From the IMG/VR virus record IMGVR_UViG_3300006086_000044, positions 1-20,558 of that record: DNA of 20,558 bases; one strand, written 5' to 3'. The notes beneath the pieces were generated by a model. It made no database searches. It saw only the letters and a program-made list of their open reading frames with translations, and had not been told where the DNA came from. The stretch comes from a virus. The translations under genes and the position numbers were made by a program. The stretch's first letter is position 1, and the number at the start of each line of letters is the position of its first letter. Shown here in pieces: positions 1-16,744 of this stretch.

Positions 1-36
1 TTGTGTTCACATTAATAATTATTAATGTGAACACAA
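1..36. repeat. Composite palindromic element, copy 1 (perfect 36-bp palindrome)
   Basis: The first 36 bases are a perfect inverted repeat. It consists of a left decamer TGTGTTCACA (2..11), a 14-bp AT-rich core TTAATAATTATTAA (12..25) and a right decamer TGTGAACACA (26..35). A further GTTCACA follows at 37..43. The element lies directly upstream of the early promoter (64..92). The same decamer-core-decamer layout, with the same 24-bp centre spacing, recurs at 7135, 13599 and 16711. The window edge coincides with the palindrome, so sequence to its left cannot be judged. It is probably a protein-binding site acting on DNA; a terminator is less likely because no T-tract follows. Confidence 0.85.
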
Positions 37-63
37 GTTCACATCAAATCGGCTAACTCTTGG

Positions 64-92
64 TTGACAATGCGGGTGAACGGGGGGATAAT
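64..92 (+). promoter_or_regulatory. Sigma70-like promoter of the early operon
   Basis: A perfect -35 box TTGACA (64..69) and a -10 box GATAAT (87..92) are separated by the optimal 17 bp. Transcription would start near position 99, leaving a short leader before the ATG at 143. The spacer contains GTGAAC (76..81), the same core as the decamers of the palindromic elements, which suggests a regulator could occlude or activate the promoter. Recognition by the host holoenzyme fits an early gene block. Confidence 0.7.
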
Positions 93-142
93 CTAATCGT
101 GGCAATAATGCCATGCTAACTATTTGCACTGAAAGGCAAACC

Positions 143-829
143 ATGACCCAAGAACTTACTGGCGAACTTAACTTCCCAGCAGACCTAGACGACCCCTTCG
201 CCGCCCTTGACCGCGAAGTTGCCGCTGTCCTAGCAGCAAAAGAAGCGGAAGCTTCCCTTAAAGCAGCCGCAAAACAAGCCCGCGACCGCGCCGATGACCC
301 TGAAAGTCGCAGGCTTGAGGCTGAACTTGACCGCATCCGCAATGCCAGACTGTGGAAAGCCACTTCAAATGTGGCGCTTTTTCGGGTTAAGAATTGCGAA
401 TGTGGCACTTCTCACGCTGTGCTTGAGCGACTTTTTGAACGTCAGGAGAACAAACAGCTGCTTGCTTCAAGGTTAATCGTGCCTGAGGGCAGTCTGCGCG
501 ACGACCTTCCCCGCTTAACCGACCGCATTGAAGAAGCTGTGCTGCAATGTGCAAGCTGCATTGGGACTTACGGCTTTGACCTGAGCGATATTTTCGCGGA
601 AGTTGAAGGGGAAGACGGCGAAGAAGTTGCCTCGACAGATGAGACAGCTCCTGCTCTTGACACCCTCACAGATGATGAACTGGCTGAGCGCATTTACGCC
701 TTAGACAGCGAGACATTTGCTTTACTGGAAGAACAAGACCGCCGCCGCCTCGCGCAGAAGCTGGAAGTCTCCCAATCCTTCCTCCAAGCCCACCTCAACA
801 CCACCGAAGGAGACTTCCATCATGTGTAA
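143..829 (+). CDS. Hypothetical early phage protein with CxC/CxxC cysteine pairs
   Basis: This is a 228-residue acidic protein, the first gene of the early operon. The ATG at 143 is preferred over an in-frame ATG at 113 because GAAAGG (131..136) lies six bases before it. The N-terminal third is charged, alanine-rich and helical, probably a coiled coil (about residues 25-65). Two cysteine pairs, C85-x-C87 and C136-x2-C139, could bind one zinc ion in a ribbon-like fold. The rest is rich in Asp and Glu. I do not recognise the family. Its place behind the early promoter fits a host-takeover or replication accessory protein, but nothing in the sequence proves that. It overlaps the next start (ATG at 822), implying translational coupling. 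Confidence 0.8.
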   Translation: MTQELTGELNFPADLDDPFAALDREVAAVLAAKEAEASLKAAAKQARDRADDPESRRLEAELDRIRNARLWKATSNVALFRVKNCECGTSHAVLERLFERQENKQLLASRLIVPEGSLRDDLPRLTDRIEEAVLQCASCIGTYGFDLSDIFAEVEGEDGEEVASTDETAPALDTLTDDELAERIYALDSETFALLEEQDRRRLAQKLEVSQSFLQAHLNTTEGDFHHV

Positions 830-1094
830 ATTCACTGTCACAGCTCACAACCCTTACGAAGAAGGGTCTTTGGAGCACATCGCCTTCCGCGAAAAGCTTG
901 CGGACATCAATTCCAGCCCTCGGTTCTGGGTAAGTGACTGGCGTTGGCTCACGCAGAAGCTGCCACTCGCGGCTTACGAACGGCTTTCTGCTTTTTCAGG
1001 TGATGAATGGGCGAAAATGTCACCTGAGCTGAGCGTGAAATTTCGGGAAGAACTCGCAAAACTTACAGGAGCACAATTCCATGAGAAAGATTGA
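822..1094 (+). CDS. Hypothetical small phage protein (90 aa)
   Basis: This 90-residue protein starts at the ATG at 822, which overlaps the end of the previous gene by 8 bases. A strong GAAGGAGA (806..813) precedes it, and this rules out longer in-frame starts upstream. The protein has many aromatic residues in its middle (FWVSDWRW) and a charged helical C-terminus. No catalytic motif or membrane segment is visible. It is probably a soluble early protein of unknown role. Confidence 0.75.
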   Translation: MCKFTVTAHNPYEEGSLEHIAFREKLADINSSPRFWVSDWRWLTQKLPLAAYERLSAFSGDEWAKMSPELSVKFREELAKLTGAQFHEKD

Positions 1095-1401
1095 ACGTCG
1101 AATGTTGGCTGCAGTTAAGAAAAACATTAGCCTGAAGATGAGAAAGGATGAATGGAACTCACACACTGGGCAGTATTTGCTTTATGGTAAATGCATCGCA
1201 AAGCTTTATGAGGGAAAGCTTCTTGTAAGTCTTGCGGAACACTCCTCTCGGGTAACCCTAAGCCGCCTTCGCAATGTCTTCGGAGTAAGGCTTGACGTCA
1301 AGCGAGGTAATGTCTTTTTGAATCCTGTGGGTACTACTGACTTGGGGGTTCCCATGCACCCTTGTGAGTTCTACGAAGTAACTTCAGGACTGCCAAAATG
1401 A
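1081..1401 (+). CDS. Hypothetical basic phage protein (106 aa)
   Basis: This 106-residue protein is rich in Lys and Arg, particularly in the first 25 residues. The ATG at 1081 follows an AGGAG motif with normal spacing and overlaps the preceding gene by 14 bases. The basic N-terminus and the mixed beta-like body (repeated V/L/F patterns around residues 40-85) could suit nucleic-acid binding, but no known domain is recognised. Confidence 0.7.
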   Translation: MRKIERRMLAAVKKNISLKMRKDEWNSHTGQYLLYGKCIAKLYEGKLLVSLAEHSSRVTLSRLRNVFGVRLDVKRGNVFLNPVGTTDLGVPMHPCEFYEVTSGLPK

Positions 1402-1535
1402 AGCACCAATTACCCCAAGATGAAGACGAACTCACTCTGCTACGCGATTTCACGGCAGCAGCCTTACGATTCGCAGCCGTAAGCCTCGGGATTCTCTGCT
1501 TTTATCTGCTTATGTCGGCGGTGATGTATGACTAA
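1398..1535 (+). CDS. Small single-pass membrane protein (45 aa)
   Basis: This 45-residue ORF starts with the ATG at 1398 (CAGGA eight bases upstream), overlaps the previous stop as ATGA and ends at TAA 1533..1535. Residues 1-17 are polar and acidic. Residues about 21-43 form one hydrophobic helix (ALRFAAVSLGILCFYLLMSAVM), suggesting a single membrane pass. The function is unknown. It is the first of three consecutive tiny membrane-protein genes. Confidence 0.6.
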   Translation: MKHQLPQDEDELTLLRDFTAAALRFAAVSLGILCFYLLMSAVMYD

Positions 1536-1653
1536 CCGCCGACATAAGCGTGTTCTCCCGCCCCTGTGGTATCGTGCAGGGCTTCTCTACATCAAGTGCT
1601 GGATTATTGCAATGGTGCTTGGTATTACTTACCATTTGATTAAGGATTTATAA
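1528..1653 (+). CDS. Small basic membrane protein (41 aa)
   Basis: This 41-residue ORF starts at the ATG at 1528 inside the end of the previous gene (8-base overlap) and stops at TAA 1651..1653, one base before the next ATG. A basic N-terminus (NRRHKR) is followed by an aromatic, hydrophobic helix (about residues 14-37), a positive-inside pattern predicting a cytoplasmic N-terminus. The family is not recognised. The tight overlap on both sides supports it as a real gene despite its size. Confidence 0.55.
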   Translation: MTNRRHKRVLPPLWYRAGLLYIKCWIIAMVLGITYHLIKDL

Positions 1654-1654
1654 G

Positions 1655-1852
1655 ATGGAAAACATTAAAATTACTCTGCTGACCCTTAGCCTACTCGCCA
1701 ACTCTTACATCGCATTGCAGCTTATCCCTGAAGCTATCGACACTCAGGGATTACACAGTCTAAAGTTGCGACTGCTTGCCTTACTTGCAGTCATTCTCAA
1801 CTTGGGTTCAATTGTTTGGTGTATCGTTTACTTTCAGGAGATTCTAATATGA
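1655..1852 (+). CDS. Small two-pass membrane protein (65 aa)
   Basis: This 65-residue protein has the ATG at 1655 and AAGGA (1642..1646) upstream. Two hydrophobic segments are visible (about residues 5-25 and 38-60), joined by a short polar loop, so it probably spans the inner membrane twice. It is the third consecutive tiny membrane gene, immediately before the DNA ligase, whose ATG overlaps this stop as ATGA. The role is unknown; a host-membrane or superinfection-exclusion role is only a guess from size and position. Confidence 0.65.
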   Translation: MENIKITLLTLSLLANSYIALQLIPEAIDTQGLHSLKLRLLALLAVILNLGSIVWCIVYFQEILI

Positions 1853-2754
1853 CCCCCTTCCGCCCTATGCTTGGTGTTGCCATCAAGTCCCCCTCAGCCC
1901 TTCGCTACCCCTTATGGGCATCGCCTAAGATTGACGGCATCCGCGCTCTTGTCCGCGATGGTGTGGTGTACAGCCGCAGCATGAAGCCAATCCCCAATTC
2001 TTGGGTGCAGGAAGCCTTCGGCCTGCGCCAGTTCGAGGGCTTTGACGGTGAGCTTATCCTCAACAACAGCTTCAACGAGACAACTTCCGTGGTAATGTCC
2101 CACGATAAGCCCATCACAGGACTGCAATACAAGGTCTTTGACCTCGCTGGCAGACATCAAAAAGAGCCATTCTACAAGCGACAGGAAATCTTAAATGAGT
2201 GCTTTGACCTCTTTAAGTACCGTGATGATGTGGAGCTGCTGCCGCAGGGTTGCATTTACAATGAAAAGGACTTACAGCTCTACGAAGAGATTGTACTGGG
2301 CATGGGCTACGAAGGCGTCATGCTTCGCAACCCCAATGCCCCCTATAAGCAAGGTCGCAGCACCCTTCGCGAACAGGGGATGCTGAAAGTCAAGCGCTTC
2401 GAGGACATGGAGGCTGTTGTGACAGGCTTCGAACCCCTCTACACCAACGAAAACACTGCCCATGCAGACGAACGTGGCTTCACCAAGCGCAGCACTCGGC
2501 AAGAAGGCAAGGTACAGATGGATATGCTGGGGACTCTGCACGTTAAAGGTGTCGCTGTGCCTTGGCAAGGCAAGGAGTTTTGCGTGGGCGGGGGCTTCAC
2601 CGCCCAGCAGCGCATCGACCTCTGGCAAGCCTCACAGCAACTCCTCGGCAAAGTCATCCGCGTCCGCTACTTCCCTTACGGCAGCGTTGACGCCCCACGC
2701 TTCCCAGTCTTTGCAGGCTTCCGCGACCCTCTTGACATGGGAGAGCCAGCATGA
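1849..2754 (+). CDS. ATP-dependent DNA ligase
   Basis: This 301-residue enzyme would seal nicks in phage DNA during replication and repair through an AMP-lysine intermediate. All nucleotidyltransferase motifs are visible: motif I KIDGIR with the adenylated Lys27, motif III FDGEL with Glu68, motif IIIa KVFDL (95-99), motif IV EGVMLR (155-160) and motif V KVK (180-182). A C-terminal OB-fold of about 100 residues follows, ending in a FRYP-like RVRYFPYGS stretch typical of small phage ligases. The length is close to minimal viral ligases and shorter than T7 ligase. CAGGAG (1835..1840) before the ATG at 1849 fixes the start, and the ATG overlaps the preceding stop. It belongs to the replication operon and probably joins Okazaki fragments. 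Confidence 0.93.
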   Translation: MTPFRPMLGVAIKSPSALRYPLWASPKIDGIRALVRDGVVYSRSMKPIPNSWVQEAFGLRQFEGFDGELILNNSFNETTSVVMSHDKPITGLQYKVFDLAGRHQKEPFYKRQEILNECFDLFKYRDDVELLPQGCIYNEKDLQLYEEIVLGMGYEGVMLRNPNAPYKQGRSTLREQGMLKVKRFEDMEAVVTGFEPLYTNENTAHADERGFTKRSTRQEGKVQMDMLGTLHVKGVAVPWQGKEFCVGGGFTAQQRIDLWQASQQLLGKVIRVRYFPYGSVDAPRFPVFAGFRDPLDMGEPA

Positions 2755-2972
2755 GCTTTGATTTCAACATCCCACTCCCACCAAAAGCTCCACGCGACAG
2801 GCTGGGACTTAAGGACTTTCCCACTGGAGCTTCTAAGTTCTTCGCGGCTCACGAGATTTCCCGTAATCGCCTGTACACTGCCCTAAACCATCATAACCCC
2901 GATGCCGACTTCTCTGTTCGAAAGCTGACAGAAGGCGGAGTTGTGGGCTACAGAGCTTGGAGAACGAGATGA
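2751..2972 (+). CDS. Hypothetical small basic phage protein (73 aa)
   Basis: This 73-residue protein has its ATG at 2751 overlapping the ligase stop (ATGA) and GGGAGAG just upstream. It is proline-rich at the N-terminus and basic at the C-terminus. The middle (ASKFFAAHEISRNRLYTALN) looks like a helix-turn-helix-sized helical pair, which would suit a small DNA-binding or replication accessory protein. That is inferred from composition only. Confidence 0.65.
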   Translation: MSFDFNIPLPPKAPRDRLGLKDFPTGASKFFAAHEISRNRLYTALNHHNPDADFSVRKLTEGGVVGYRAWRTR

Positions 2973-3151
2973 AAACTTATGACATCCTGTTAAGCTCCCT
3001 TTCCAGTACCCAGCGAAAGAATAATTTACGCTGGATGCGTGGGATAAGAGCATCAAGTCTTACAGAAGCGGCGGGAAAGGCGACAGCAAAATGCCCAAGA
3101 ATCGGCATTACACCGCCGATTATGTCCATAGGCTGGGAGGTCTGGAAATGA
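2969..3151 (+). CDS. Hypothetical small basic protein (60 aa)
   Basis: This 60-residue protein starts at the ATG at 2969 (GGAG at 2959..2962), overlapping the previous stop. An upstream in-frame TTG at 2957 is less likely because it lies on top of the ribosome binding site. The protein is rich in Arg and Lys (TQRKNNLRWMRGIR) with a helical centre. No family is recognised. It overlaps the next gene as ATGA. Confidence 0.6.
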   Translation: MKTYDILLSSLSSTQRKNNLRWMRGIRASSLTEAAGKATAKCPRIGITPPIMSIGWEVWK

Positions 3152-3483
3152 AAGCCCCTTCCGAACTCGAACGCGAAGCCTACATCCGTGGCGACACTGC
3201 GGCTGCAGACATCTACTACAAAGCGTGCATTGTGGACAAGATGAAAACTCAGCTGGAAAGTGGAACTGCCCACATTGAGGAAGCTCGGGCTACGCTGCCC
3301 GAAGAAGGCTGGATTCTCACCGCCCTCCGCGACAGACTGCCTCGGGGCAACCGCAGTATCGCAGTCATCATGGAAACACTCGAAGACCTTGACACCGAAC
3401 TGGCTAACCTCATCGGCTGCGCCCAAGAAGAACTCTCACTCGCAACTAAAGAACTCTTACTCACAACTAAGGAACTGAAATGA
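3148..3483 (+). CDS. Hypothetical helical phage protein (111 aa)
   Basis: This 111-residue, mostly helical, acidic protein starts at the ATG at 3148, seven bases after GGGAGG (3135..3140); an in-frame ATG at 3091 lacks such a site. The C-terminus carries a short near-repeat, ATKELLLTTKELK, encoded by two almost identical stretches near 3446-3480. The heptad-like leucine spacing suggests a coiled coil. The function is unknown. Confidence 0.7.
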   Translation: MKAPSELEREAYIRGDTAAADIYYKACIVDKMKTQLESGTAHIEEARATLPEEGWILTALRDRLPRGNRSIAVIMETLEDLDTELANLIGCAQEELSLATKELLLTTKELK

Positions 3484-3680
3484 ATACCACCCTCCACTTC
3501 GGCTTGACCGAGGAAATCAAAGCAAAGCTTGACCTGCTGCTCTTTTCGCAAGTCGAACTCCGCGTTCCCAAGGGAGCTTATAAAGCCTACCTTGAAGGGC
3601 TTATTACCCGTGATTTGAAGGCGATGCAAACCCCATGCCCTCAGTGCCGTGGTACAGGTATAGGAGCTTCCCATGTTTGA
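3480..3680 (+). CDS. Small protein ending in a CxxCxGxG zinc motif (66 aa)
   Basis: This 66-residue protein overlaps the preceding stop (ATGA at 3480). Residues 1-45 look like a helical domain with charged heptads. The C-terminus carries CPQCRGTG, the CxxCxGxG half-motif of DnaJ-type zinc ribbons. With only one pair it would need a dimer or a partner to bind zinc. It overlaps the helicase start by 8 bases and is probably co-translated with it. It may be an accessory factor, but no specific function can be given. Confidence 0.65.
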   Translation: MNTTLHFGLTEEIKAKLDLLLFSQVELRVPKGAYKAYLEGLITRDLKAMQTPCPQCRGTGIGASHV

Positions 3681-4935
3681 ACTCTCCTCTGAACAAGAAC
3701 TCGCTGTGCAAGGCGTTTTGGACTTCATCCAAAATCCCCACCCAGCTTCCCCTTACTACGTTCTGAGTGGCTACGCTGGCACAGGCAAAACCTATTGCCT
3801 TCATGCCATCCTAGAACGCACCAAGCGGAGCAAAGTGTCCTTCGCCTTCACTGCGCCCACGAACAAGGCTGCGAAAGTCCTCATGTCCGTGGCCAAGGAC
3901 GCCAAGACCATCCACTCCCTCTTGGGGCTGTACCTCGATAAGTCTGGCGAACTCAAGCGGCTCACTGGCGGTAAGCTCACACATAAAGACTTCCAGCATC
4001 TTGACGTGATTATCGTGGATGAAGGCTCAATGATTTCCGAGGGGCTGAAGGCGGAACTCGATAAAATCACCAGCAAATCTTCCCTGAAGGTGCTTTTCCT
4101 TGGCGACCCTGCTCAGCTCCCGCCAGTCAAAGAGGGCGACTCCCCCATTTGGCAGCTTCCGCGTGGCCAGCACCTGACCAAAGTCATGCGCCATGACAAT
4201 CAAATCCTTGCCTTGGCCACCCGTATCCGCGAAGCAGTTAACCATCCCGCCCCCAGCATCGAAATCGTCAGCGACAACGATGGGGATACTGGGGTCTGGA
4301 GGCTGAAATCTGTCCCCTTCAAAGCCTCGATTCACAAAGCTGCACTTGATGGACTGTTCAGCGACCCGCTGGCGTGTAAGGTAATCGCATGGCGCAACAC
4401 CAAAGTAGACGAATACAACCAACTCGTCCGCAGTGCCCTGTGGGGAACAGAAGCTCAGCTTAATCGCTACGTTGTCGGAGACAGAATCATTGCTGCCGCC
4501 GCTCTCCAAAGCGACGACATCATCATCATGACCACTGATGAAGAAGCCCTTATCACAGGTGTAGTTGTTGGTCGACATCCTGCTGCCCCCGACTACAGCA
4601 TCTTCTTCCTGACCTGCCGAACTGAGAATGGGCGCACGGTGCAGCTTCGCGTCCTACACCCCGACTCAGAAGAAGCCCATCGTGGCAAACTCAATCGCAT
4701 GGCGGAAGAGGCCAAAGGCTTCCCCAAGCTCTGGAAGGACTACTGGAACTTCAAGGAACTCTTCCACGAGGTAAAGTACGCCTATGCCATCACTGCCCAT
4801 CGTTCGCAGGGCAGCACGTATGCAAATGTATGGGTGGACTGCATGGACATTCTCGCAAACCGTAAACGCAAGGAAGCCTTCCAGTGCCTTTATGTGGCGT
4901 GTACGCGCCCCTCCACGCGCCTCTACGTCCAATAA
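3673..4935 (+). CDS. SF1 DNA helicase, Dda/RecD2-like
   Basis: This 420-residue superfamily 1B helicase is close in length to T4 Dda (439). It would unwind duplex DNA with 5'-3' polarity during replication or recombination. The visible motifs are a Q-like motif SSEQELAV (5-12), Walker A GYAGTGKT (33-40), motif Ia TAPTNKAAK, Walker B IVDE (D116, E117), motif III GDPAQLPPV (144-152, sensor Q148), a UvrD_C_2-type motif HRSQGST (376-382) and motif VI YVACTR with R412. TAGGAG precedes the ATG at 3673. It is the last gene of the first plus-strand unit; a new promoter follows. The Dda-like family is clear, while the exact role (origin unwinding or fork remodelling) is inferred. Confidence 0.92.
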   Translation: MFELSSEQELAVQGVLDFIQNPHPASPYYVLSGYAGTGKTYCLHAILERTKRSKVSFAFTAPTNKAAKVLMSVAKDAKTIHSLLGLYLDKSGELKRLTGGKLTHKDFQHLDVIIVDEGSMISEGLKAELDKITSKSSLKVLFLGDPAQLPPVKEGDSPIWQLPRGQHLTKVMRHDNQILALATRIREAVNHPAPSIEIVSDNDGDTGVWRLKSVPFKASIHKAALDGLFSDPLACKVIAWRNTKVDEYNQLVRSALWGTEAQLNRYVVGDRIIAAAALQSDDIIIMTTDEEALITGVVVGRHPAAPDYSIFFLTCRTENGRTVQLRVLHPDSEEAHRGKLNRMAEEAKGFPKLWKDYWNFKELFHEVKYAYAITAHRSQGSTYANVWVDCMDILANRKRKEAFQCLYVACTRPSTRLYVQ

Positions 4936-4949
4936 CGTCAATAACTTAC

Positions 4950-4978
4950 TAGACAATGTGAACCTATCGCATTATAAT
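4950..4978 (+). promoter_or_regulatory. Sigma70-like promoter before the nuclease/Sak4 genes
   Basis: A -35 box TAGACA (4950..4955, one mismatch) and a perfect -10 box TATAAT (4973..4978) are separated by 17 bp, in the 75-base gap after the helicase gene. The spacer holds TGTGAACCTA (4957..4966), which matches the TRTGNNCAYR decamer of the palindromic elements except for one base. This suggests that the promoter is controlled by the same DNA-binding protein. Confidence 0.7.
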
Positions 4979-5010
4979 TCATCCCCTAGCCAAATAGAAA
5001 GCACTACAAT

Positions 5011-5208: not shown

Positions 5209-5209
5209 T

Positions 5210-6145: not shown

Positions 6146-6309
6146 CACCAACTGCTCGCAATCGGCAGTACTGGGAATACCGCAAGAAGATTCTCACTGG
6201 TGAAGTCCCTGCCACACAGTCTTACGACGACTACAAACGCATCCGAGAACAGAAAAAGCTATGGCCAGCTTTAAAGGCCGTTAACAAACCTAAGGAACTT
6301 TCAAAATGA
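6142..6309 (+). CDS. Hypothetical small basic protein (55 aa)
   Basis: This 55-residue, strongly basic protein overlaps the nuclease stop (ATGA at 6142) and the start of the next ATPase gene (ATGA at 6306). It is rich in Tyr, Arg and Lys (NRQYWEYRKK). Its position between nuclease and recombinase genes suggests an accessory role in recombination. No domain is recognised. Confidence 0.6.
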   Translation: MTPTARNRQYWEYRKKILTGEVPATQSYDDYKRIREQKKLWPALKAVNKPKELSK

Positions 6310-7139
6310 CAACCACATCCACACTCCCTGGCCTTAACATCCTTCTTATGGGGCCAGCAGGCACGGGCAAGACCCACAGCATCGGCACACTTGTTGACTC
6401 AGGCGTTGAGGTGTTCTACTTGGGGCTGGAGGCAGGCCTCGAATCGCTCTTGGGCTACTACACCGACCGCAAGAAAGAAATCCCTGCCAATCTTCATTGG
6501 CATTTACTCGCAGCACCCAAGGCCAGCTTCAGCGACTTCCTCTCCAGTGCCACAAAAATCAACACCATGTCCCTTGATATGCTGGCGAAGGCCGTTGACC
6601 CTGACCGTGCGAAGCACAACCAGTTCCTCAAGCTCATCGAAGCCCTCAACAACTTCCCTGATGACAAGACTGGGGAGAAGTTCGGCTGTGTGGATACTTG
6701 GACACCCTCCCGCGCCCTTGTCATTGATGGTATGGCGGGGCTGGCTAACGCTGCCATGTCCCTCGTTGTCGGCGGTAAGGCTGTTCGCAATCAATCCGAC
6801 TGGGGGATTGCCCAGTCTCAAGTCGAGAAAATTGTCCGTATGTGGACTGAGAATTGCGATTGCCACTTCGTTCTCCTTGCTCACGTTGAACGCGAAACAG
6901 ATGCAGTCCTCGGTGGTGTGAAGCTGATGATTTCCACGCTTGGTAAAGCCCTCGCTCCCAAGCTCCCACCCATGTTCTCCGATGTTATCCTGACCGTACG
7001 CGAGGGCAACAAGTTCTCATGGGACACTGCCAATGCACAAGCTGATGTCAAGACCCGCAATCTGGAAATCAAAGCTGGGCTTCCTGCTGACTTCGGACCG
7101 ATTATTACCAAGTGGAAATCTCGCGGTGGCGTGATATGA
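6306..7139 (+). CDS. Sak4-like RecA-fold ATPase (AAA_24 type recombinase)
   Basis: This 277-residue P-loop ATPase has Walker A GPAGTGKT (16-23) and Walker B LVID with D141, followed by a RecA-core-like strand VLLAHVERE. The layout and length fit the Sak4/AAA_24 phage proteins, which bind single-stranded DNA and help strand annealing or exchange with an SSB. The partners expected for Sak4 are present here: a nuclease upstream and a putative SSB downstream. The ATG at 6306 overlaps the previous stop, with AAGGA upstream. The stop codon TGA (7137..7139) lies inside the left decamer of palindromic element 2, so the gene end and the element overlap. Confidence 0.85.
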   Translation: MTTTSTLPGLNILLMGPAGTGKTHSIGTLVDSGVEVFYLGLEAGLESLLGYYTDRKKEIPANLHWHLLAAPKASFSDFLSSATKINTMSLDMLAKAVDPDRAKHNQFLKLIEALNNFPDDKTGEKFGCVDTWTPSRALVIDGMAGLANAAMSLVVGGKAVRNQSDWGIAQSQVEKIVRMWTENCDCHFVLLAHVERETDAVLGGVKLMISTLGKALAPKLPPMFSDVILTVREGNKFSWDTANAQADVKTRNLEIKAGLPADFGPIITKWKSRGGVI

Positions 7140-7178
7140 CCACATTAATAATTATTAATATGACCACATAAAAGGAGA
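7134..7178 (+). repeat. Composite element, copy 2, with T7-promoter-like 3' flank
   Basis: A decamer TATGACCACA (7135..7144), the core TTAATAATTATTAA (7145..7158) and a second identical decamer (7159..7168) occupy the gap before the SSB-like gene. Here the two decamers are direct repeats, not inverted. The 13 bp CACATAAAAGGAG (7165..7177) are identical to the flank of copy 4 on the other strand. Bases 7156..7178 match the 23-bp T7 late promoter consensus at 16 positions by my count. The GGAG is not a usable ribosome binding site, because no start codon follows within range. Confidence 0.75.
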
Positions 7179-7261: not shown

Positions 7262-7711
7262 ATGTCATTCGACCCAGATTCATTCCTGAACACTACCACC
7301 ACTCAAGCTGGCGACACACGCCTTCAACCTGTCCCCGTAGGCGAGTACCCTGCCCTCGTCACTGAGGTTAAAGCTCGTCAATGGACTGGCAAATCCGACC
7401 CAACAAAGTCAGGCGTTGCCCTCGACCTCACTTGGGAACTCGAAAGCATGGACTTAAAACACGCCCTTGGCCGTGACAAAATCACTGTCAAGCAGGGCAT
7501 CATGCTTGACCTTACCCCTGATGGGGCGCTGGACTTTGGCACAGGCCGCAATGTCAGCCTCGGTCGCTTGCGCGAAGCTGTTGGCTTGAACACTCCAGGC
7601 CAGCCATTCGCGTTCTCGATGCTGCAAGGCCGCGCTGCAAACGTGAAAGTCACGCATCGCTTGGTGGAAGATGAAGCCTACCCTGAAGTAAAATCAGTGT
7701 CGGCTATGTAA
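7262..7711 (+). CDS. Putative single-stranded DNA-binding protein
   Basis: This 149-residue protein has its ATG at 7262 with AAGGA (7251..7255) upstream. The sequence pattern (a short FDPDSFLNTTT start, then VPVGEYPALVTEV, then a beta-rich body) resembles phage single-strand-binding proteins of the DUF669 kind that accompany Sak-type recombinases. An OB-fold would bind ssDNA at the fork and support the neighbouring ATPase and polymerase. There is no acidic C-terminal tail like that of bacterial SSB. The call rests on overall pattern and context between a Sak4-like ATPase and replication genes, so it is moderate. Confidence 0.55.
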   Translation: MSFDPDSFLNTTTTQAGDTRLQPVPVGEYPALVTEVKARQWTGKSDPTKSGVALDLTWELESMDLKHALGRDKITVKQGIMLDLTPDGALDFGTGRNVSLGRLREAVGLNTPGQPFAFSMLQGRAANVKVTHRLVEDEAYPEVKSVSAM

Positions 7712-7717
7712 GATGGT

Positions 7718-7761: not shown

Positions 7762-7778
7762 CGCTTGAGGTTTTAAAA

Positions 7779-7868: not shown

Positions 7869-9239
7869 ATGACTTTCATTCGCATCGCAGAAATTCACAT
7901 CCCTGAATCTCGCCAACGCAAGGCCTTCGACGAAGTGGCCTTATCCGACCTTGCAGAATCCCTGCAAACCACAGGTCTCCTTCACCCTATTGTCCTGCGT
8001 GAATCCCCTGAAGGCCTCACACTTGTGGCTGGAGAGCGTCGCCTCCGTGCCATGCAGCAGTGCCATCTTCTCGACCTCACAGTCTTGCATCAGGGTAAGC
8101 CCATCCCCGAAGGCTGCGTCCCTTACACCAATCTCGGTCAGCTTTCTGAACTTGAAATCGAGGAAGCCGAACTAGACGAAAACATCCGCAGGGTTGACCT
8201 CTCTTGGCAAGAGCGCGATGTCACCCTAGCCCGCATTCACGCCCTGCGCACCAAGCAAGCCCAAGCGCAAGGCCGCGTTCACACAGTCGCCGACACCGCC
8301 CATGAACTCTCAGGCCGCAGCGACGGAGCTTATCAAGACAATCTCCGCAAGTCCCTTGTCGTTGCGCGTTATATGGACAATCCTCTTGTGGCCAAAGCCA
8401 AGGACACCAACGAGGCTTTCAAAATCATCAAGCGCCAAGAAACCGCACAGCAGAACGTCCAGCTCGCTCGCACCATCGGCAAGACCTTCACAGCGCAAAA
8501 CCACAAGCTCTACAATGAAGACTGTCTCCAGTGGATGTCCGCTGCTCCAGCGGGGTACTTCGATGTTATCTGTACTGACCCTCCTTATGGCATGGGTGCA
8601 GATGACTTCGGCGATATGGGTTCCGCTGCTCGTGCTGCCGATACCCACGGCTACAAGGACGACAAAGCCCACTGGCGCAAGCTGATGACCGCGTGGGCGC
8701 CTCTGTCCTTCCGCATTACTAAGCCCGAAGCCCACGCTTACATCTTCTGCGATATCGACATTTGGGAAGAGCTCAAAGCTCTCATGCAAGCTGCTGGTTG
8801 GTATGTCTTCCGCACCCCTTTCATCAGCAGCAAAGGCACTGGAGGCCGCGTCCCCCTGTGGGATGAAGGCCCTCGTCGCTCTTGGGAAATGCTGATGTAC
8901 TGCATCAAAGGCCACAAGCACACCACAGGCATCTACGGTGACGTTATCACAACCTCAATGGAAGGGGAAAAGTACGGACACGCAGCTCAGAAACCTGTCG
9001 CCCTCTACTATGATTTACTTCGTCGTTCAGTTAAGGCTGGAGATAAGGTTCTTGACACCTTCGCAGGAACGGGAACAATTTTCCCTGCCGCCCAGCCTTT
9101 ACTTTGTGAGGTCACAGCCCTTGAGTTATCTCCTGAATACTATGCCATTGCTTCGAAGCGGCTAGCAGAATTGCAAACCCCTGCCCAAGCCTCCGATGGT
9201 GCAGCCCTCATGTCAGAACTCTTCAGCTTAGGAAAATAA
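7869..9239 (+). CDS. ParB-domain / DNA methyltransferase fusion
   Basis: This 456-residue two-domain protein has an N-terminal ParB/Sulfiredoxin-type domain (about 1-130) with GLLHPIVLR (36-44) and the GERR box (55-58). A linker rich in charged residues follows, then an amino-methyltransferase domain: DPPY (237-240), then FAGTG (398-402) for SAM binding. Having DPPY before FxGxG puts it in the beta class of N6-adenine/N4-cytosine enzymes. It probably methylates phage DNA, for example to evade host restriction or mark replication. The ParB-like part may guide DNA contact or use CTP, which is only inferred. The ribosome binding site is weak (GGA), and a structured leader lies upstream, so translation may be controlled. 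It abuts the polymerase gene. Confidence 0.9.
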   Translation: MTFIRIAEIHIPESRQRKAFDEVALSDLAESLQTTGLLHPIVLRESPEGLTLVAGERRLRAMQQCHLLDLTVLHQGKPIPEGCVPYTNLGQLSELEIEEAELDENIRRVDLSWQERDVTLARIHALRTKQAQAQGRVHTVADTAHELSGRSDGAYQDNLRKSLVVARYMDNPLVAKAKDTNEAFKIIKRQETAQQNVQLARTIGKTFTAQNHKLYNEDCLQWMSAAPAGYFDVICTDPPYGMGADDFGDMGSAARAADTHGYKDDKAHWRKLMTAWAPLSFRITKPEAHAYIFCDIDIWEELKALMQAAGWYVFRTPFISSKGTGGRVPLWDEGPRRSWEMLMYCIKGHKHTTGIYGDVITTSMEGEKYGHAAQKPVALYYDLLRRSVKAGDKVLDTFAGTGTIFPAAQPLLCEVTALELSPEYYAIASKRLAELQTPAQASDGAALMSELFSLGK

Positions 9240-11627: not shown

Positions 11628-11647
11628 TTTAACTTTGAAAGGTTATG

Positions 11648-11848
11648 ATGAACAAAACCCTAGACCCTGATGCGGTCAACCGACTAAACGCCAGCCTACA
11701 GCGCTACCAGCCACGAGCTGAGAAGCTTGCTCTCGCCGCAGCCTTCCGCCAACTGGAGCAGGAAACCGCAGCCGAACACTTGCACAACCTGCATACGGAA
11801 GCACAAAAAGAATACAAACGCAATTTAAGGAGCTACGAACATGATTAA
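11648..11848 (+). CDS. Hypothetical small helical protein (66 aa)
   Basis: This 66-residue protein starts at the second of two adjacent ATGs (11648), which sits at better distance from GAAAGG (11637..11642) than 11645. It is almost wholly helical and charged (Gln, Glu, Ala, Arg), probably a coiled coil. It is the first gene after the polymerase and begins a run of small accessory genes. No function is recognised. Confidence 0.6.
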   Translation: MNKTLDPDAVNRLNASLQRYQPRAEKLALAAAFRQLEQETAAEHLHNLHTEAQKEYKRNLRSYEHD

Positions 11849-11927
11849 GCAAGCAACAGCAATGACCGACCCGCAAAATCAGGTAAAACAACTGACCGAG
11901 CAAGCAAGGCGGGTGTGTGATGACTAA
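11841..11927 (+). CDS. Very small ORF (28 aa)
   Basis: A 28-codon ORF starts at the ATG at 11841, preceded by a strong AAGGAG (11827..11832), and stops at TAA 11925..11927. It overlaps the previous gene by 8 bases and the next start by 8 bases. The peptide is polar and helical. The strong ribosome binding site and close overlaps argue that it is translated, perhaps mainly to couple translation to the next gene. Confidence 0.45.
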   Translation: MIKQATAMTDPQNQVKQLTEQARRVCDD

Positions 11928-12288
11928 GCAACTACTAGAACAGGCTGTAGCTTTGGCAAAAGATGTGCTCGATAGCTTGGAAGATTGGGCAGGGTATGCA
12001 CCTACGTACTTCAAGGGAAAGCACGGATATTCTGTGCAAGTTTTGCAGTACAACCAGCGCATAAAAGCCCTAGAAGCTGCTATTGCATCTTGGAGTGATG
12101 AGCCTGCGGCTAATGGATGCCAATGTGTTGTATGCGGCGAATGGCAGCGTTGGACACCATCGGGTATGACTTGCAAAAATGGTCATGGTGGCGCACAAGG
12201 TATTAACACAAAACTCTACACCCGTCCAGCACCAAGCGAAGTAACGGCAGCGCAACAATGTCTTGAAAGGGCGAAAAATGTTACGTGA
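11920..12288 (+). CDS. Hypothetical phage protein with possible zinc-binding motif (122 aa)
   Basis: This 122-residue protein starts at the ATG at 11920; a GTG at 11917 is an alternative. The helical N-terminal half is followed by a cysteine cluster, CQCVVCGEWQRW and then TCKNGHGG. These are Cys and His residues that could bind one zinc ion. The pattern resembles accessory early-region proteins seen in many temperate and lytic phages of Proteobacteria, of unknown role. It overlaps the next gene by 11 bases. Confidence 0.65.
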   Translation: MTKQLLEQAVALAKDVLDSLEDWAGYAPTYFKGKHGYSVQVLQYNQRIKALEAAIASWSDEPAANGCQCVVCGEWQRWTPSGMTCKNGHGGAQGINTKLYTRPAPSEVTAAQQCLERAKNVT

Positions 12289-12487
12289 GACGCTGTTGAA
12301 AATCAAGAAATCCTATTTTTCTCTTAACGAAGTGACTATGGACAAATCATTAGAACAAGCCTATCAAGCAGGCGCAGAAGCCGAGCGTGAGGCGTGTGTA
12401 AAGGTTTGCGAGAGGGCTGCACGTAATCCTTCTACTGATGATGCGTACATGTTATCCAGACAAATCCGCGAAAGGAAAATAACATGA
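12278..12487 (+). CDS. Hypothetical small phage protein (69 aa)
   Basis: This 69-residue protein has its ATG at 12278 behind GAAAGG (12265..12270). An in-frame ATG at 12338 would give a 49-residue protein beginning MDKSLEQAYQAG and is a realistic alternative, because the conserved-looking part (AGAEAEREACVKVCE) starts there. It is helical, with two cysteines. No function is assigned. Confidence 0.6.
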   Translation: MLRETLLKIKKSYFSLNEVTMDKSLEQAYQAGAEAEREACVKVCERAARNPSTDDAYMLSRQIRERKIT

Positions 12488-12903
12488 ACTACATACCATA
12501 CCGCGAAGGTAAAGTTTACGACAAAGCGCATCTACGCCCGTTTGATTTGGACTTGGCAAAACAAGGGCATTCGTTGGCGCTTAGTAGCGGAGCAGAAATC
12601 CGATTATTCCGAGAGACAAGAATCGGCATTTATGGTTTTGACTATTGGCTTCCTAACTTTGGCTGGTCTTCGACTGGATGGTATAACGATATTAACGACC
12701 TTAACTTGTACCTACGCCTCGCACCCCTTGCAGTCAGAGACGGACGACCGCTTCATGTGGGGGATGTGATTGAAGTCGAGGGTCGTACATATCTTAACGA
12801 GTGGTTTATTAAAGTCTTTGAACTTAAAGACTCTTCGCATATAACAAGCAAGAGCAAGGTGTGGCGCTTCCCAAACGATGAAAAAGCAAAGGATATTTTA
12901 TGA
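12484..12903 (+). CDS. Hypothetical phage protein (139 aa)
   Basis: This 139-residue protein has its ATG at 12484 overlapping the previous stop, with AAAGGA upstream. It is rich in aromatic residues (YGFDYWLPNFGWSSTGWYN) and beta-like. A middle stretch (LHVGDVIEVEG) resembles a small barrel or SH3-like turn. No named family is recognised. Local base composition is visibly more AT-rich than in the replication genes, which fits an accessory origin. Confidence 0.65.
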   Translation: MNYIPYREGKVYDKAHLRPFDLDLAKQGHSLALSSGAEIRLFRETRIGIYGFDYWLPNFGWSSTGWYNDINDLNLYLRLAPLAVRDGRPLHVGDVIEVEGRTYLNEWFIKVFELKDSSHITSKSKVWRFPNDEKAKDIL

Positions 12904-13097
12904 GTGAACCGCTTAGTTTTACCGTAAAAGTAACCAGCTGCAATGACTGTCCTCACGCGAAGATTCATGATTACGAATCGTGGTGCGCCTATGTTAATTG
13001 TCCCCGTTGCGAATTTGAAACCTTTGAGGAAAATTGTCTCGGCATAACGCCTTCCTGCCCTGCTTGGCAGGATCAACAAAAAGAGAAAATAGAATGA
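12900..13097 (+). CDS. Cysteine-rich small protein, probable zinc binder (65 aa)
   Basis: This 65-residue protein has seven cysteines (C14, C17, C29, C34, C37, C46, C53) arranged as CxxC, C, CxxC, C, C. This strongly suggests one or two structural zinc ions. AAAGGA precedes the ATG at 12900, which overlaps the previous stop. Small zinc proteins of this sort in phages often act on host transcription or other host proteins, but that role is only inferred. Confidence 0.65.
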   Translation: MSEPLSFTVKVTSCNDCPHAKIHDYESWCAYVNCPRCEFETFEENCLGITPSCPAWQDQQKEKIE

Positions 13098-13423
13098 AAC
13101 CAACTAGAGAACAACTAGAGCTTGCGGCTAAGGCGGCGGGAATTGAAATATACCTGACTAAATCAACACCCGATAGAGTTTTTTACCGACTTGACATTTG
13201 TGAGGAGTGGCGTCCAACGGAGGACAAGTCCGAGAGCTTTGAACTTATGGTTGCTTGTGGAATTGATGTTGAATTTAATGAAGCTGCTGGAATAGTCTAT
13301 ACGGAAAAACACTCATGTTGCATCAGGGTATTTGTAGATGAAGACTACAATAACGACAAAGGTCTAGCCACCATGTGGGCTATCTTTTTATGTGCTGTTG
13401 AGATTGGGGGGGCTGTGCGATGA
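13094..13423 (+). CDS. Hypothetical phage protein (109 aa)
   Basis: This 109-residue acidic protein starts at the ATG at 13094, which overlaps the previous stop. An earlier in-frame start at 13034 would lie inside the previous gene with no ribosome binding site. The start TREQLELAAKAAGIEI and the overall length match a kind of accessory protein common in phages and prophages of Proteobacteria. The function is unknown. Confidence 0.65.
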   Translation: MKPTREQLELAAKAAGIEIYLTKSTPDRVFYRLDICEEWRPTEDKSESFELMVACGIDVEFNEAAGIVYTEKHSCCIRVFVDEDYNNDKGLATMWAIFLCAVEIGGAVR

Positions 13424-13584
13424 GGGAAGTACCTATAGAATTTAAACTGGCAAATGACCTTGGTTATTTTCGTAGCATTCTTGTGCCGATTATGATGGCT
13501 GACAAATACGATACCTTAAAGCAACCAATGACTGCCATGACAGAGAAAATCCAGCAAACTAAAAGATTGGAGGGTAAGCAATAA
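13420..13584 (+). CDS. Small hypothetical protein (54 aa), last plus-strand gene
   Basis: A 54-residue ORF starts at the ATG at 13420, overlapping the preceding stop (ATGA), and ends at TAA 13582..13584. It is the last gene before the convergent minus-strand module. The peptide is amphipathic (LANDLGYFRSILVPIMM) and basic at its end. No family is recognised. The coupling overlap is the main support that it is real. Confidence 0.5.
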   Translation: MREVPIEFKLANDLGYFRSILVPIMMADKYDTLKQPMTAMTEKIQQTKRLEGKQ

Positions 13585-13594
13585 TTCCACGTCG

Positions 13595-13636
13595 ATTATA
13601 TGGTCACATTACTAATTAGTAATGTGACCATATAAT
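13595..13636. repeat. Composite element, copy 3 (perfect 42-bp palindrome at the convergence point)
   Basis: A perfect 42-bp inverted repeat lies where the plus and minus modules meet. It holds decamers TATGGTCACA (13599..13608) and TGTGACCATA (13623..13632) around the core TTACTAATTAGTAA (13609..13622). The core differs from the other copies by a matched C/G pair that keeps the palindrome. It covers the last codons and stop of the Rz gene. As RNA it would form a long AU-rich hairpin from either strand, so a bidirectional terminator or RNA-end protector is possible besides protein binding. Confidence 0.85.
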
Positions 13637-14070
13637 TTCCGATATTCCTTCAGCTCCTCTTGCTGCATCATTGCGTCGGCAGCAAACCTTGCAAGAAATT
13701 CCGCATCTCCGCTTGATAATTCCGCTCCGTTCCCCCCAGCACACTTGTCACTTTCGGTGGTGGCGGGAGTTGTGGGCAAGTCTGCGCGACGGGCACTGCG
13801 CTGGCGCAAGCTGTCAGCAATAGCAGCATCACGCTGCTGAGCAATAAGAGTAATCTGTTCATCTGCTTTCTCCTGTAAAGTTGTGGCGATTTGCTGCCAG
13901 TTGGCTGTCGTTTTCTGTGCGGCAAGGATTTGAGCATCCACAGCCCTCTGCTCCTGCATTTTGTAAGTCGCAAGCTTCTTATCCCCACTGCGCAGCCCCT
14001 CCACATACCCAACACTGGCAATCCCAGCTGCTACCAGCAGCACCGCAAGCAATTTATAAACCGTAATCAT
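13612..14070 (-). CDS. Rz: Rz-like inner-membrane spanin (i-spanin)
   Basis: This 152-residue protein has one N-terminal transmembrane segment (about residues 4-23), then a long charged coiled-coil periplasmic domain. It would link the inner membrane to Rz1 in the outer membrane and fuse the two at the last step of lysis. The ATG at 14070 overlaps the endolysin stop (ATGA) and follows GAAGGGG; a TTG at 14088 is less likely. The Rz1 gene lies wholly inside it in another frame, a classic arrangement. Its last residues (YGHITN) are encoded by palindromic element 3, so the C-terminus may be shaped by the DNA element. Confidence 0.9.
   Translation of the reverse strand: MITVYKLLAVLLVAAGIASVGYVEGLRSGDKKLATYKMQEQRAVDAQILAAQKTTANWQQIATTLQEKADEQITLIAQQRDAAIADSLRQRSARRADLPTTPATTESDKCAGGNGAELSSGDAEFLARFAADAMMQQEELKEYRKLYGHITN
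13668..13862 (-). CDS. Rz1: Rz1-like outer-membrane lipoprotein spanin, nested in Rz
   Basis: This 64-residue lipoprotein lies wholly inside Rz in another frame. The N-terminus MNRLLLLLSS is followed by a lipobox LTAC with the lipidated Cys19. A proline-rich mature part (CPQLPPPPKV) follows, as is typical for Rz1. AGGAG (13870..13874) lies seven bases before the ATG at 13862 and fixes the start. It would sit in the outer membrane and pair with Rz. Its presence shows a Gram-negative host. Confidence 0.9.
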   Translation of the reverse strand: MNRLLLLLSSVMLLLLTACASAVPVAQTCPQLPPPPKVTSVLGGTERNYQAEMRNFLQGLLPTQ

Positions 14071-14549
14071 GTCAGCCCCTTCAGACAAACCTTCTGTTCA
14101 TCCAGCCGCCGCTGCCTAAGCCCAGGCAACACAACCATCATACCTGCCACTCGTGCCTTATCCCATTTCGGCAGCTCATTACAAGCAGCTTCCCAATTTC
14201 CATCATGAAGGTACTTGGCCATTGTAGAGTGGCTTGGCTCGCAGACGACTGATTCACCTAAATTGTAGGCGGCATCACTCATTGCGATAGTTACGTTATC
14301 GGGTATGCCTCTAGGAACGCATAAAACGACGTTTGAGACGATTTTCTGCACGTCCATATCCAACATAGCCCGACACTCGTCGAGCGAATATACGCGGTTT
14401 TGAACGTTGTGTGTTTCCCCGTAGCAAACCGTAAGCACCCGTGGCGGGTCATAGTAAGGAGTAAGTTTCACCCCCTCATGTGCTGCCGCCATTGCCACCA
14501 CAGCAGCCACGACTGCCGAAGTCTTACGCGCTTGTGGTGTCAGTGCCAT
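14067..14549 (-). CDS. SAR-type endolysin, GH24 lysozyme (muramidase)
   Basis: This 160-residue lysozyme of the T4L/R21 kind would cut peptidoglycan beta-1,4 bonds. The catalytic triad pattern E-x8-D-x5-T is exact: E25, D34 and T40 (HEG, YYD, VLTVCYGET). Residues about 11-23 are a weakly hydrophobic Ala/Val stretch (SAVVAAVVAMAAA), typical of a signal-anchor-release segment. This suggests export by Sec, tethering in the membrane, and activation when the holin depolarises it. Several cysteines (C42 and others) may take part in disulfide switching. The ATG at 14549 (AGGA upstream) is chosen over 14618; it overlaps the holin gene end by 26 bases. Confidence 0.9.
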   Translation of the reverse strand: MALTPQARKTSAVVAAVVAMAAAHEGVKLTPYYDPPRVLTVCYGETHNVQNRVYSLDECRAMLDMDVQKIVSNVVLCVPRGIPDNVTIAMSDAAYNLGESVVCEPSHSTMAKYLHDGNWEAACNELPKWDKARVAGMMVVLPGLRQRRLDEQKVCLKGLT

Positions 14550-14751
14550 GAAGAACATCCTGCTGGATAATGCTGGCGACCATGATGGCCAAGCCCAGCA
14601 CTGCGTTGATGACGGCAAAAGTAGTAGGCGGCAGGAAGGCCGACACAGCTCCGATGAACTGCTGGGCTGTGTTCAAGACTGCCACAACCGCAGCCAGCCG
14701 CACGAGCCAGCTTTCCTTCAAAATCCGCTGCCAACGACTTGTGAGGTTCAT
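14524..14751 (-). CDS. Holin (or pinholin)
   Basis: This 75-residue protein has a basic N-terminus (SRWQRILKESW) and two hydrophobic segments (about 17-40 and 43-63) separated by a PP turn, and a short polar tail. Size, topology and position just upstream of the endolysin mark it as the holin. Since the endolysin looks like a SAR type, the holin could be a pinholin that only depolarises the membrane. AGGAG precedes the ATG at 14751. Confidence 0.8.
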   Translation of the reverse strand: MNLTSRWQRILKESWLVRLAAVVAVLNTAQQFIGAVSAFLPPTTFAVINAVLGLAIMVASIIQQDVLHGTDTTSA

Positions 14752-14752
14752 A

Positions 14753-14950
14753 CTATTCTCCTGATTGTGGGATATTTGGGCCGAATTTATGCCTGTCCCA
14801 CATACGCCACAAGACCCACACGAGGGTGGCTGTGGTGAGAAGGGTAGTCATAACCGCGTTAAGGATATCAAACCAAGCAATGACTGTGACAGTGCCAGCT
14901 GCGAGGTCGAGAGCGTCCTTGAGAAGGGGTGGAGTGTTTTGTAAGCTCAT
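14753..14950 (-). CDS. Small membrane protein, holin-like or antiholin candidate (65 aa)
   Basis: This 65-residue protein has one or two hydrophobic stretches (about residues 17-28 and 33-49), ending in a WRMWDRHKFG basic tail. It overlaps the preceding stop as ATGA and is immediately upstream of the holin. Similar small proteins stand beside lysis genes in many podoviruses and siphoviruses. It could be a second holin, an antiholin or a general phage membrane protein; the sequence does not decide. Confidence 0.65.
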   Translation of the reverse strand: MSLQNTPPLLKDALDLAAGTVTVIAWFDILNAVMTTLLTTATLVWVLWRMWDRHKFGPNIPQSGE

Positions 14951-15138
14951 GAAGTTGCAGCGGCAGGCGCTGTCGTATTAGCGGCAGGGGGTGTCGATGT
15001 GACAGCTGGCAAGGGGGTGTTTCCCGCTGCCAGCCATAGCTGATAGGCTCGATAGTCTGTGTTAAGGGGGTCGGAGGGGATATAAGCCTTATCGGAGAGG
15101 CGGATAATCCCTGTAAAAAATTCTGTGCACTGGTACAT
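14947..15138 (-). CDS. Small tail-fibre-associated protein (63 aa)
   Basis: This 63-residue protein has its ATG at 15138 (GGAG nine bases upstream); a TTG at 15144 is less likely. The pattern DYRAYQLWLAAGNTPLPA resembles the end of many phage tail-fibre assembly or hinge proteins, where a WLAxGNTP motif is common. An Ala/Pro/Thr-rich tail ends the protein. It follows the fibre gene directly, so it may help fibre folding or attachment. The assignment rests on the motif and the position. Confidence 0.6.
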   Translation of the reverse strand: MYQCTEFFTGIIRLSDKAYIPSDPLNTDYRAYQLWLAAGNTPLPAVTSTPPAANTTAPAAATS

Positions 15139-15140
15139 GG

Positions 15141-16403
15141 TCAAAGCTCCGCTGATAATGTAATAGAAGGTTGATAATACTGAGCAGTCGTCCCCCCAGT
15201 CGTCACACTGCCCATCGCCATTGTGCGCCCACTGGTTGGAGTAATGGGAAGCACAACCCCATTAGCAGTACCACCAGCAGCTGCCGATGTGATGAAAACT
15301 GTCGGCGTGGCTCGCATCTGGCAAAGAAACGTAAACCCACTGCCAAAGGATGCCGGAGCATCTGACCGATAGCTATTAAGAATATAAGTGCTGAGAATCT
15401 GATAATACCGTTGGCACAGAGTTAACTCCTGCCCAACTGAGCGATTCTCGAAAGGAGTTGGGGCTGTCCCTGCCTCTAATTGAACCTGAGAAAAAGAAAA
15501 TTGCCCAGTTGCAAGCCCAGCTCCCGAGAGGATAAAGCTAACTTGTAATCCGTTTATACTGTTCACAAGGCCGCTTGGCATGGCTACAAAATATGATGTA
15601 AGTGGTGTCCCTGCTGGAAGGGTGAAAGATGTGCTGAAAAGTGTATTGCTGCTGGCAGGGTTTGTATACCAAGAATCACCCCCCGCAGTCGGGGAGGACA
15701 GCACTGTTGTCAGTGTCATTGGGAAAAAGCTGTTATTACCAGCTTGGAAAGAGAGGCAAAGCGGCACGTTAGTAAGGTTAAGGCAATTCTGTGCTTCAAT
15801 TCTCTGGCACAGGGTTATACTTGTCGTAGTTCCATTTCCATACTGAGCAAGATTCAACTGATAGCCCGAATTATTATTATTTGAGCCTCTTTGGGCATAC
15901 GCTCCAGTGCCTAAACTAGCAAAAGCCCACCTATCCACACAGTAGGTTATGACATTACTAGTATCATTCTTGAAAACTGCGGCTCCCGCATTTCTTTGGT
16001 CTATACGCATTGCCCCGTTAATGAGCAGATTTCTCCCACTAAGATACCCACTAAGATACCCAAGCTGCCCAATTTGCCACTGCTGCACGAAGTTTTGCAG
16101 CCCTGCCGCCGTGACACGCAGCTCGAAAGTCGTCCCTGCCTGCCACATTTGCGCCTTGCTGCCATCTTGACCGCGAACAATTGTGAAAGTGTCCCCTGCC
16201 GTGGCCGTGACCAGCACCCGCTCCCAAGACTGCGCCACGCCGTTCAACACAGTTGTAAGAGTGCCGTAGAAATAATCCCCGCTTTGGCTGATGACTGGGA
16301 ACATCGCCCCCTGACCACTGACTAATTGCAGCGAAGTGGCACCAGCAGCTAGTGAGTTAAGCAACTGTCCGCTGGCATTATTTGTAAAAAGATTGCTGTT
16401 CAT
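15141..16403 (-). CDS. Tail fibre / receptor-binding protein
   Basis: This 420-residue beta-rich protein is low in Lys and Cys and rich in Ser, Thr, Gly, Asn and Gln. The first ~110 residues (ATSLQLVSGQGAMFP, then VRGQDGSKAQMW) resemble the virion-attachment part of phage tail fibres. After a short GYLS repeat comes NLLINGAMRIDQRNAG, then a VDRW motif. This is a characteristic start of receptor-binding domains in fibres and tailspikes, followed by a carbohydrate-module-like beta sandwich to about 330 and a C-terminal tip domain. It probably binds host surface sugars. The start ATG at 16403 has a modest AGG upstream. Confidence 0.82.
   Translation of the reverse strand: MNSNLFTNNASGQLLNSLAAGATSLQLVSGQGAMFPVISQSGDYFYGTLTTVLNGVAQSWERVLVTATAGDTFTIVRGQDGSKAQMWQAGTTFELRVTAAGLQNFVQQWQIGQLGYLSGYLSGRNLLINGAMRIDQRNAGAAVFKNDTSNVITYCVDRWAFASLGTGAYAQRGSNNNNSGYQLNLAQYGNGTTTSITLCQRIEAQNCLNLTNVPLCLSFQAGNNSFFPMTLTTVLSSPTAGGDSWYTNPASSNTLFSTSFTLPAGTPLTSYFVAMPSGLVNSINGLQVSFILSGAGLATGQFSFSQVQLEAGTAPTPFENRSVGQELTLCQRYYQILSTYILNSYRSDAPASFGSGFTFLCQMRATPTVFITSAAAGGTANGVVLPITPTSGRTMAMGSVTTGGTTAQYYQPSITLSAEL
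16036..16059 (-). repeat. 12-bp tandem duplication in the tail fibre gene
   Basis: Two perfect copies of CCACTAAGATAC lie head to tail, giving the repeated peptide GYLSGYLSG at the joint between the attachment part and the receptor-binding domain. The unit is a multiple of three, so copy-number change would lengthen or shorten the hinge without a frameshift. Confidence 0.85.
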
Positions 16404-16409
16404 GTGAGC

Positions 16410-16697
16410 TTAGCCTATGGTGAAAGTATCAATCGCCGACCCGCCTATTGTATGCGAAGCTGGCTGGCTTGTCAAGCCTAGAATGAAGATGTATGGGGGG
16501 AGAGGCCGAGTCCAAGGAACTGAAGGGTTGTCAGTCACCCCACGCAGAAAGTCTTGCGGATTGCGCTTCTCCTTGTGGTGAGAGCAGACCCGAAAATTGT
16601 CCCACGTTTTCATGGCCGTGCTTGACTTGGCCTTCTTTCCGCAAAGGTCGCAGTAGAAATTCCATTCGCCATCAGCAAAATAGTCAGCTTCAGCCAT
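16410..16697 (-). CDS. Zinc-finger-like virion-region protein (95 aa)
   Basis: This 95-residue protein has FYCDLCGKKAKSSTAMKTW followed by VCSHHKE and RNPQDFLRG. This CxxC...CxHH pattern probably binds zinc and is common in small proteins beside tail genes in phages of Proteobacteria. The C-terminal part is beta-like and proline-rich. AAAAGGAG, part of the 13 bp shared with element 2, is the ribosome binding site five bases before the ATG at 16697. It is the first gene after palindromic element 4. The precise function is unknown. Confidence 0.72.
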   Translation of the reverse strand: MAEADYFADGEWNFYCDLCGKKAKSSTAMKTWDNFRVCSHHKEKRNPQDFLRGVTDNPSVPWTRPLPPYIFILGLTSQPASHTIGGSAIDTFTIG

Positions 16698-16701
16698 GAT
16701 G

Positions 16702-16744
16702 CTCCTTTTATGTGAACACGTTAATAATTATTAATGTGAACACA
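16702..16744 (-). repeat. Composite element, copy 4, with T7-promoter-like flank
   Basis: The decamers TGTGAACACG (16711..16720) and TGTGAACACA (16735..16744), direct repeats apart from the last base, flank the core TTAATAATTATTAA (16721..16734). On the minus strand the element is followed by CACATAAAAGGAG (16714..16702), identical to the 13 bp after copy 2. It therefore points towards the zinc-finger, fibre and lysis genes. A further GTTCAC lies at 16745..16750. It may be a promoter or operator for the late genes. Confidence 0.8.

Follow-up and report, generated by a model that had tools for sequence, protein, structure and literature searches.

What purpose does a palindromic element serve when a phage genome repeats it at the borders of its gene blocks? 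The question is raised by a 20,558-base IMG/VR fragment (hereafter the window, meaning the whole stretch analysed), whose plus strand encodes a DNA ligase, a Dda-like helicase, a PD-(D/E)XK exonuclease, Sak4, a ParB_N-methyltransferase and a PolA-type polymerase, and whose minus strand carries genes for lysis, fibre and ATP-grasp proteins. A first-pass annotation had described four 34-bp copies of an element composed of two TRTGNNCAYR decamers around a 14-bp palindromic core, and all four were recovered, at 2-35, 7135-7168, 13599-13632 and 16711-16744. The two-decamer pattern is not a product of chance, none of 100 dinucleotide shuffles containing a match. Of the eight TRTGNNCAYA decamers that the window contains, seven fall inside the four copies, and within the window the TTANTAATTANTAA core is confined to these copies. 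The central dinucleotides of the decamers (AA/TT in copies 1 and 4, AC/GT in copies 2 and 3) and their arrangement (inverted in copies 1 and 3, direct in copies 2 and 4) agree with the earlier description, and copies 1 and 3 are perfect palindromes. The features of the window referred to below are as follows.

1-39, no strand: element copy 1 (34-bp core at 2-35; 42-bp footprint clipped by the contig start)
64-92, plus: predicted sigma70 promoter that follows copy 1 (TTGACA-17-GATAAT)
113-829, plus: c8, the gene next after copy 1, whose product has four conserved cysteines (Cx1-2C...CxxC); candidate partner
3480-3680, plus: c26, encoding a 66-aa protein, RHH-like by eye; candidate binder
6306-7139, plus: Sak4-like gene c4, flanking copy 2 on its upstream side
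7131-7172, no strand: element copy 2, at the Sak4/SSB junction conserved in 11 genomes
7262-7711, plus: putative SSB gene c5, flanking copy 2 on its downstream side
13595-13636, no strand: element copy 3, where the PolA arm meets the convergent lysis/structural arm
16707-16748, no strand: element copy 4, at the junction beside ATP-grasp gene c17

Copies 1 and 4 do not overlap called genes at all. Copy 2 extends into the final bases of the Sak4 gene, and copy 3 into the 3′ end of the minus-strand gene for the spanin (ORF 13612-14088); copy 4 lies upstream of a minus-strand gene for a 95-aa protein (16410-16697). The product of c5 (7262-7711) has no family match, and its designation as SSB rests on position. 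The gene at 7869-9239, found in all full relatives, fuses a ParB_N domain to an N6/N4 DNA methyltransferase. The product of the ATP-grasp gene c17 (16902-19253, minus strand) is 783 aa long, compared with about 440 aa for its counterparts in relatives; it includes an in-frame, intein-like insert with a LAGLIDADG domain.

A search with PolA yielded 55 relatives of the window phage and no match in bacterial genomes. The decamers of the window are rare among these relatives, and a palindrome scan of the longer ones revealed in most of them repeated palindromes with a common core and phage-specific arms. We took 23 contigs and built one half-site matrix per contig; under a stricter score, 251 elements were detected in 21 related IMG/VR phages and none in reversed versions of the same genomes. 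No elements were found in the outgroup phages Kuura, PaP2, a Vibrio phage and a Microcystis phage. Elements were not encountered in any cultured member of the lineage. In all genomes, the unit consists of two inverted 18-bp half-sites around a 6-bp spacer, and, with spacers of 2-11 bp permitted in the scan, the spacer was 6 bp in every one of the elements listed. Alignment of orthologous sites yields a sharp, symmetric 42-bp phylogenetic footprint (positions 0-41) in which the spacer is variable. Genomes larger than 40 kb carry about 11 to 16 elements each, at a density of approximately one site per 3-4 kb over the entire genome. The expectation that spacing would be kept in relatives is thus borne out by the 6-bp spacer, whereas the supposed invariance of the 10-14-10 layout does not extend that far: the TRTGNNCAYR decamer is limited to the window phage and its nearest relatives, other relatives possess the 18-6-18 unit with different arms, and the 34-bp layout is the window genome's version of the conserved 42-bp unit. 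Half-sites are phage-specific, with a TTA core common to most; in G021 (L042, IMGVR_UViG_3300033552_000029), the 18-6-18 architecture is kept and the core is GTAA instead of TTAC. Two further features of this genome can be mentioned here: near position 37531, a near-consensus bacterial parS-like sequence, TGTTTCACGTGGAAC, is located between two inverted arms, and G021 and MW202489 both join a common early/replication module to an unrelated structural module.

The positions of the elements are also conserved. According to gene calls made with our own simple caller, 224 of the 255 elements (88%) are clear of genes, in genomes that are 75-87% coding. The junction between GroES and c15 carries an element in 16 genomes, that between c19 (taken as the major capsid gene) and c18 in 15, Sak4/SSB in 11 (including the window), c8/c0 in 10, and the PolA convergence in 10 (again including the window). 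Identical gene junctions are therefore reused across phages despite different arms, that is, spacing and position are kept between phages while the arm sequences change. Elements are also present in convergent and divergent gaps. The intergenic location and the recurrence of junctions support the placement at gene-block boundaries proposed from the four copies alone, and random scatter in coding DNA, which would have undermined it, is not observed, given the absence of elements from reversed genomes and outgroups and the near-absence of database matches elsewhere. Out of 2.9 million viral contigs, 4 contain the window-type pattern, and each of them belongs to this lineage: two are G013 and G027, relatives already in our set, and the remaining two encode the same structural genes, with elements positioned at the expected junctions or close to them. 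The bacterial genomes searched (257 Gb) contain the pattern twice, as single copies on unrelated contigs, which by our estimate is about the chance level.

Two properties of the arms bear on whether the constraint operates on DNA or on RNA. Among mismatched arm pairs of 190 co-directional elements, G.U combinations (198) are no more frequent than A.C combinations (304), with 400 transversions. Furthermore, the two arms of one element match each other at 13.26 of 18 positions, compared with 13.66 for random pairs of half-sites from the same genome (z = -4.6), so that selected hairpins and cruciforms are ruled out as a general explanation; pairing arms with compensating changes were not found across the elements. 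The lower match within elements fits half-sites that are read independently. Mismatch types and arm matching thus both favour the earlier suggestion of a protein-bound DNA site over an RNA hairpin. Asymmetry of the element edges, 5′ versus 3′ relative to transcription, is weak.

The elements have an ordered relationship to predicted transcription signals. Predicted intrinsic terminators are located upstream of elements in 23 cases and downstream in 1, and predicted promoters downstream in 53 and upstream in 31. At the orthologous early promoter, the -10 hexamer lies 36-90 bp from the element, and these distances share one 10.5-bp phase (R = 0.80; p = 0.0003 versus uniform, 0.0008 versus jittered distances), a suggestive result to be treated as a lead, the locus having been picked post hoc, after the pattern was seen, and some of the -10 choices being weak. 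In the window, the -10 of the promoter at 64-92 sits 48 bp past the end of the 38-mer and agrees in 10.5-bp phase with the orthologous promoter of the relatives. A second promoter locus, Sak4/SSB, showed no significant phasing (R = 0.47), and over all predicted promoters phasing was weak or absent (p = 0.04-0.23). CRP-type class I activator sites are likewise symmetric, located upstream of a sigma70 promoter and helically phased to it, and the present elements resemble them in being symmetric upstream sites at phased distances from a predicted sigma70 promoter; size, sequence and protein differ, and activation is putative here. Elements that serve as promoters themselves can be discarded, since the -10 occupies no fixed downstream position. 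Many in-operon elements leave a downstream gap of about 25 nt (element-gene gaps being approximate because the gene calls come from a simple caller), which is too short for a promoter, so the sites may not all act in a single way. A fixed-position partner motif common to the downstream flanks was looked for and not found. The 7-mer ATAACTG is approximately 15-fold enriched near elements (flanks, 13 genomes), at no fixed distance.

We propose, with a probability of roughly 0.6, that the elements are 42-bp sites for a phage-encoded protein at transcription-unit starts, acting on the host RNA polymerase. A sequence-specific DNA-binding protein encoded by the phage would sit symmetrically on two 18-bp half-sites 6 bp apart, its sites marking the starts of transcription units throughout the phage genome, and once bound would most likely work on the host RNA polymerase. 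At the early promoter it might act from upstream on a fixed helical face, either in an activator-like manner or as a repressor or insulator of the same geometry, and at sites inside operons, which follow a terminator or stop codon, it may function as an insulator or roadblock. Between phages, the protein and the specificity of its site would diverge together. The architecture, the positions, the constraint on DNA rather than RNA and the order of terminators are results of the computation, and the helical phasing is suggestive; what we infer is a protein, the sign of its action and a role in transcription.

In the literature, analogues were found in actinophages only. Cluster O mycobacteriophages (Corndog) contain more than 30 symmetric 17-bp dyad repeats dispersed over the genome, many of them intergenic; these phages have no integrase, and the repeats have been proposed as sites for a dimeric regulator (PMC4351075). 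The present elements are similarly symmetric, dispersed, predominantly intergenic and proposed as regulator sites, and no integrase was found in our scan of G003. However, the Corndog repeats are 17 bp long (7-3-7), have one sequence in five close phages and fall in coding DNA in about one third of cases (PMC4351075), whereas the elements described here span 42 bp (18-6-18), are nearly all intergenic and have arms that diverge while positions are kept. ESAS of Cluster K are 17-bp imperfect inverted repeats upstream of some genes, with a phage-dependent half-site consensus (PMC3203893, PMC12699233). They share with our elements half-sites that differ between phages, but their spacer is 4-13 bp and they are defined by association with a 13-bp SAS (PMC3203893, PMC12699233), in contrast to a spacer fixed at 6 bp and no fixed-position partner found. 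Cluster A (L5-type) stoperators also occur in many dispersed copies, to which a phage protein binds, affecting transcription; they are 13 bp long, asymmetric, oriented with transcription and bound by the immunity repressor (PMC9283540, PMC4351075). These three systems are the nearest known, and none matches the present elements in size, in the fixed spacer or in kept positions with diverging arms.

Stoperator-like roadblocks, at which a protein halts elongating RNA polymerase and keeps downstream genes silent until it is removed, would be the obvious alternative, and one that we regard as unlikely without considering it negligible. The sites are dispersed, intergenic (the same 224/255) and in part located within operons at a short distance from the next start codon, and a weak 5′/3′ asymmetry is present. 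The asymmetric orientation of stoperators, however, is not seen: the sites are near-symmetric, occur in convergent and divergent gaps as well, precede predicted promoters more often than they follow them and show phasing relative to the early promoter. Moreover, neither repressor nor integrase families were found in G003, the sole genome scanned in full. Genome-organising or partition sites of the parS type, bound to compact or segregate the DNA or to load the ParB_N-methyltransferase c6, would account for one site per ~3-4 kb genome-wide and for the ParB_N domain of c6; this seems improbable, as the HTH-like region of c6 is nearly identical in phages with unrelated half-sites and c6 is also found in element-free phages. 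Phages exploiting the host regulator CtrA are known (PMC9437464), and the arms could vary because hosts vary, which would make the elements host-regulator sites borrowed by the phage. We consider this highly improbable: no bacterial regulon with the window-type pattern was found in 257 Gb, where, for this arm type, the two matches are near chance.

Tyrosine-recombinase core sites consist of inverted arms around a short variable spacer, a layout that the elements resemble, and their placement at module borders would suit recombination sites or linkers for the exchange of gene modules. This possibility is more doubtful still, because comparison of related genomes shows no enrichment of mosaic breakpoints at elements, recombinase families were not found in G003, and element positions are conserved rather than shuffled. 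Finally, RNA hairpins for processing, stability or termination, despite the palindromic nature of the elements and the perfection of copies 1 and 3, are hardly credible when A.C exceeds G.U on the transcript strand, arms of one element pair worse than random ones and separate intrinsic terminators adjoin some elements.

To return to a phage-encoded protein on 42-bp sites, the layout observed is what one would expect of dispersed sites at which a fast-evolving phage regulator docks. A few actinophages are known to carry dispersed operator-like repeats, several kinds of which are unexplained, and the ~250 sites in 21 diverse genomes provide a natural data set for tracing the protein, for studying how one regulator changes its specificity in step with a dozen sites, and for examining how transcription units are divided in a phage for which no RNA polymerase gene was found in one genome scanned in full. 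It is possible, if doubtful, that a lineage using the host RNA polymerase has 42-bp sites of a single class as punctuation over its entire genome, with a dedicated phage protein to read them, that the specificity of this protein is rewired between phages while the positions are kept, and that the lineage thereby maintains a phage-private transcription code that distinguishes self from non-self.

Which protein might read these sites? In G021 and MW202489, elements are located among unrelated structural genes, and the early/replication module is the sole part that they have in common with the other genomes; hence, the trans factor is probably encoded in that module. Candidates include c0 (two paralogues), c1 (HTH, TerS-like), c8, c24, c26 and c2-c7. 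The fast-evolving c8 is present in every full element-bearing genome tested and c26 in nearly all. By eye, c26 displays an RHH-like strand-helix-helix pattern with a variable N-terminal strand; there was no RHH match in Pfam, its AlphaFold model has two helices, and the models of c0b and c26 had no matching PDB fold. In an analysis of covariation between proteins and half-sites, per cluster and per column, the top column scores mostly tracked one divergent clade. We rejected c6 as the binder on account of its near-constant HTH-like region, and c28 as a general binder because the family is missing from six element-bearing genomes. In the relatives, many c0 and c24 proteins end in a shared D-[TS]-D-A-L-L-like motif, a peptide that might allow both families to dock onto one partner.
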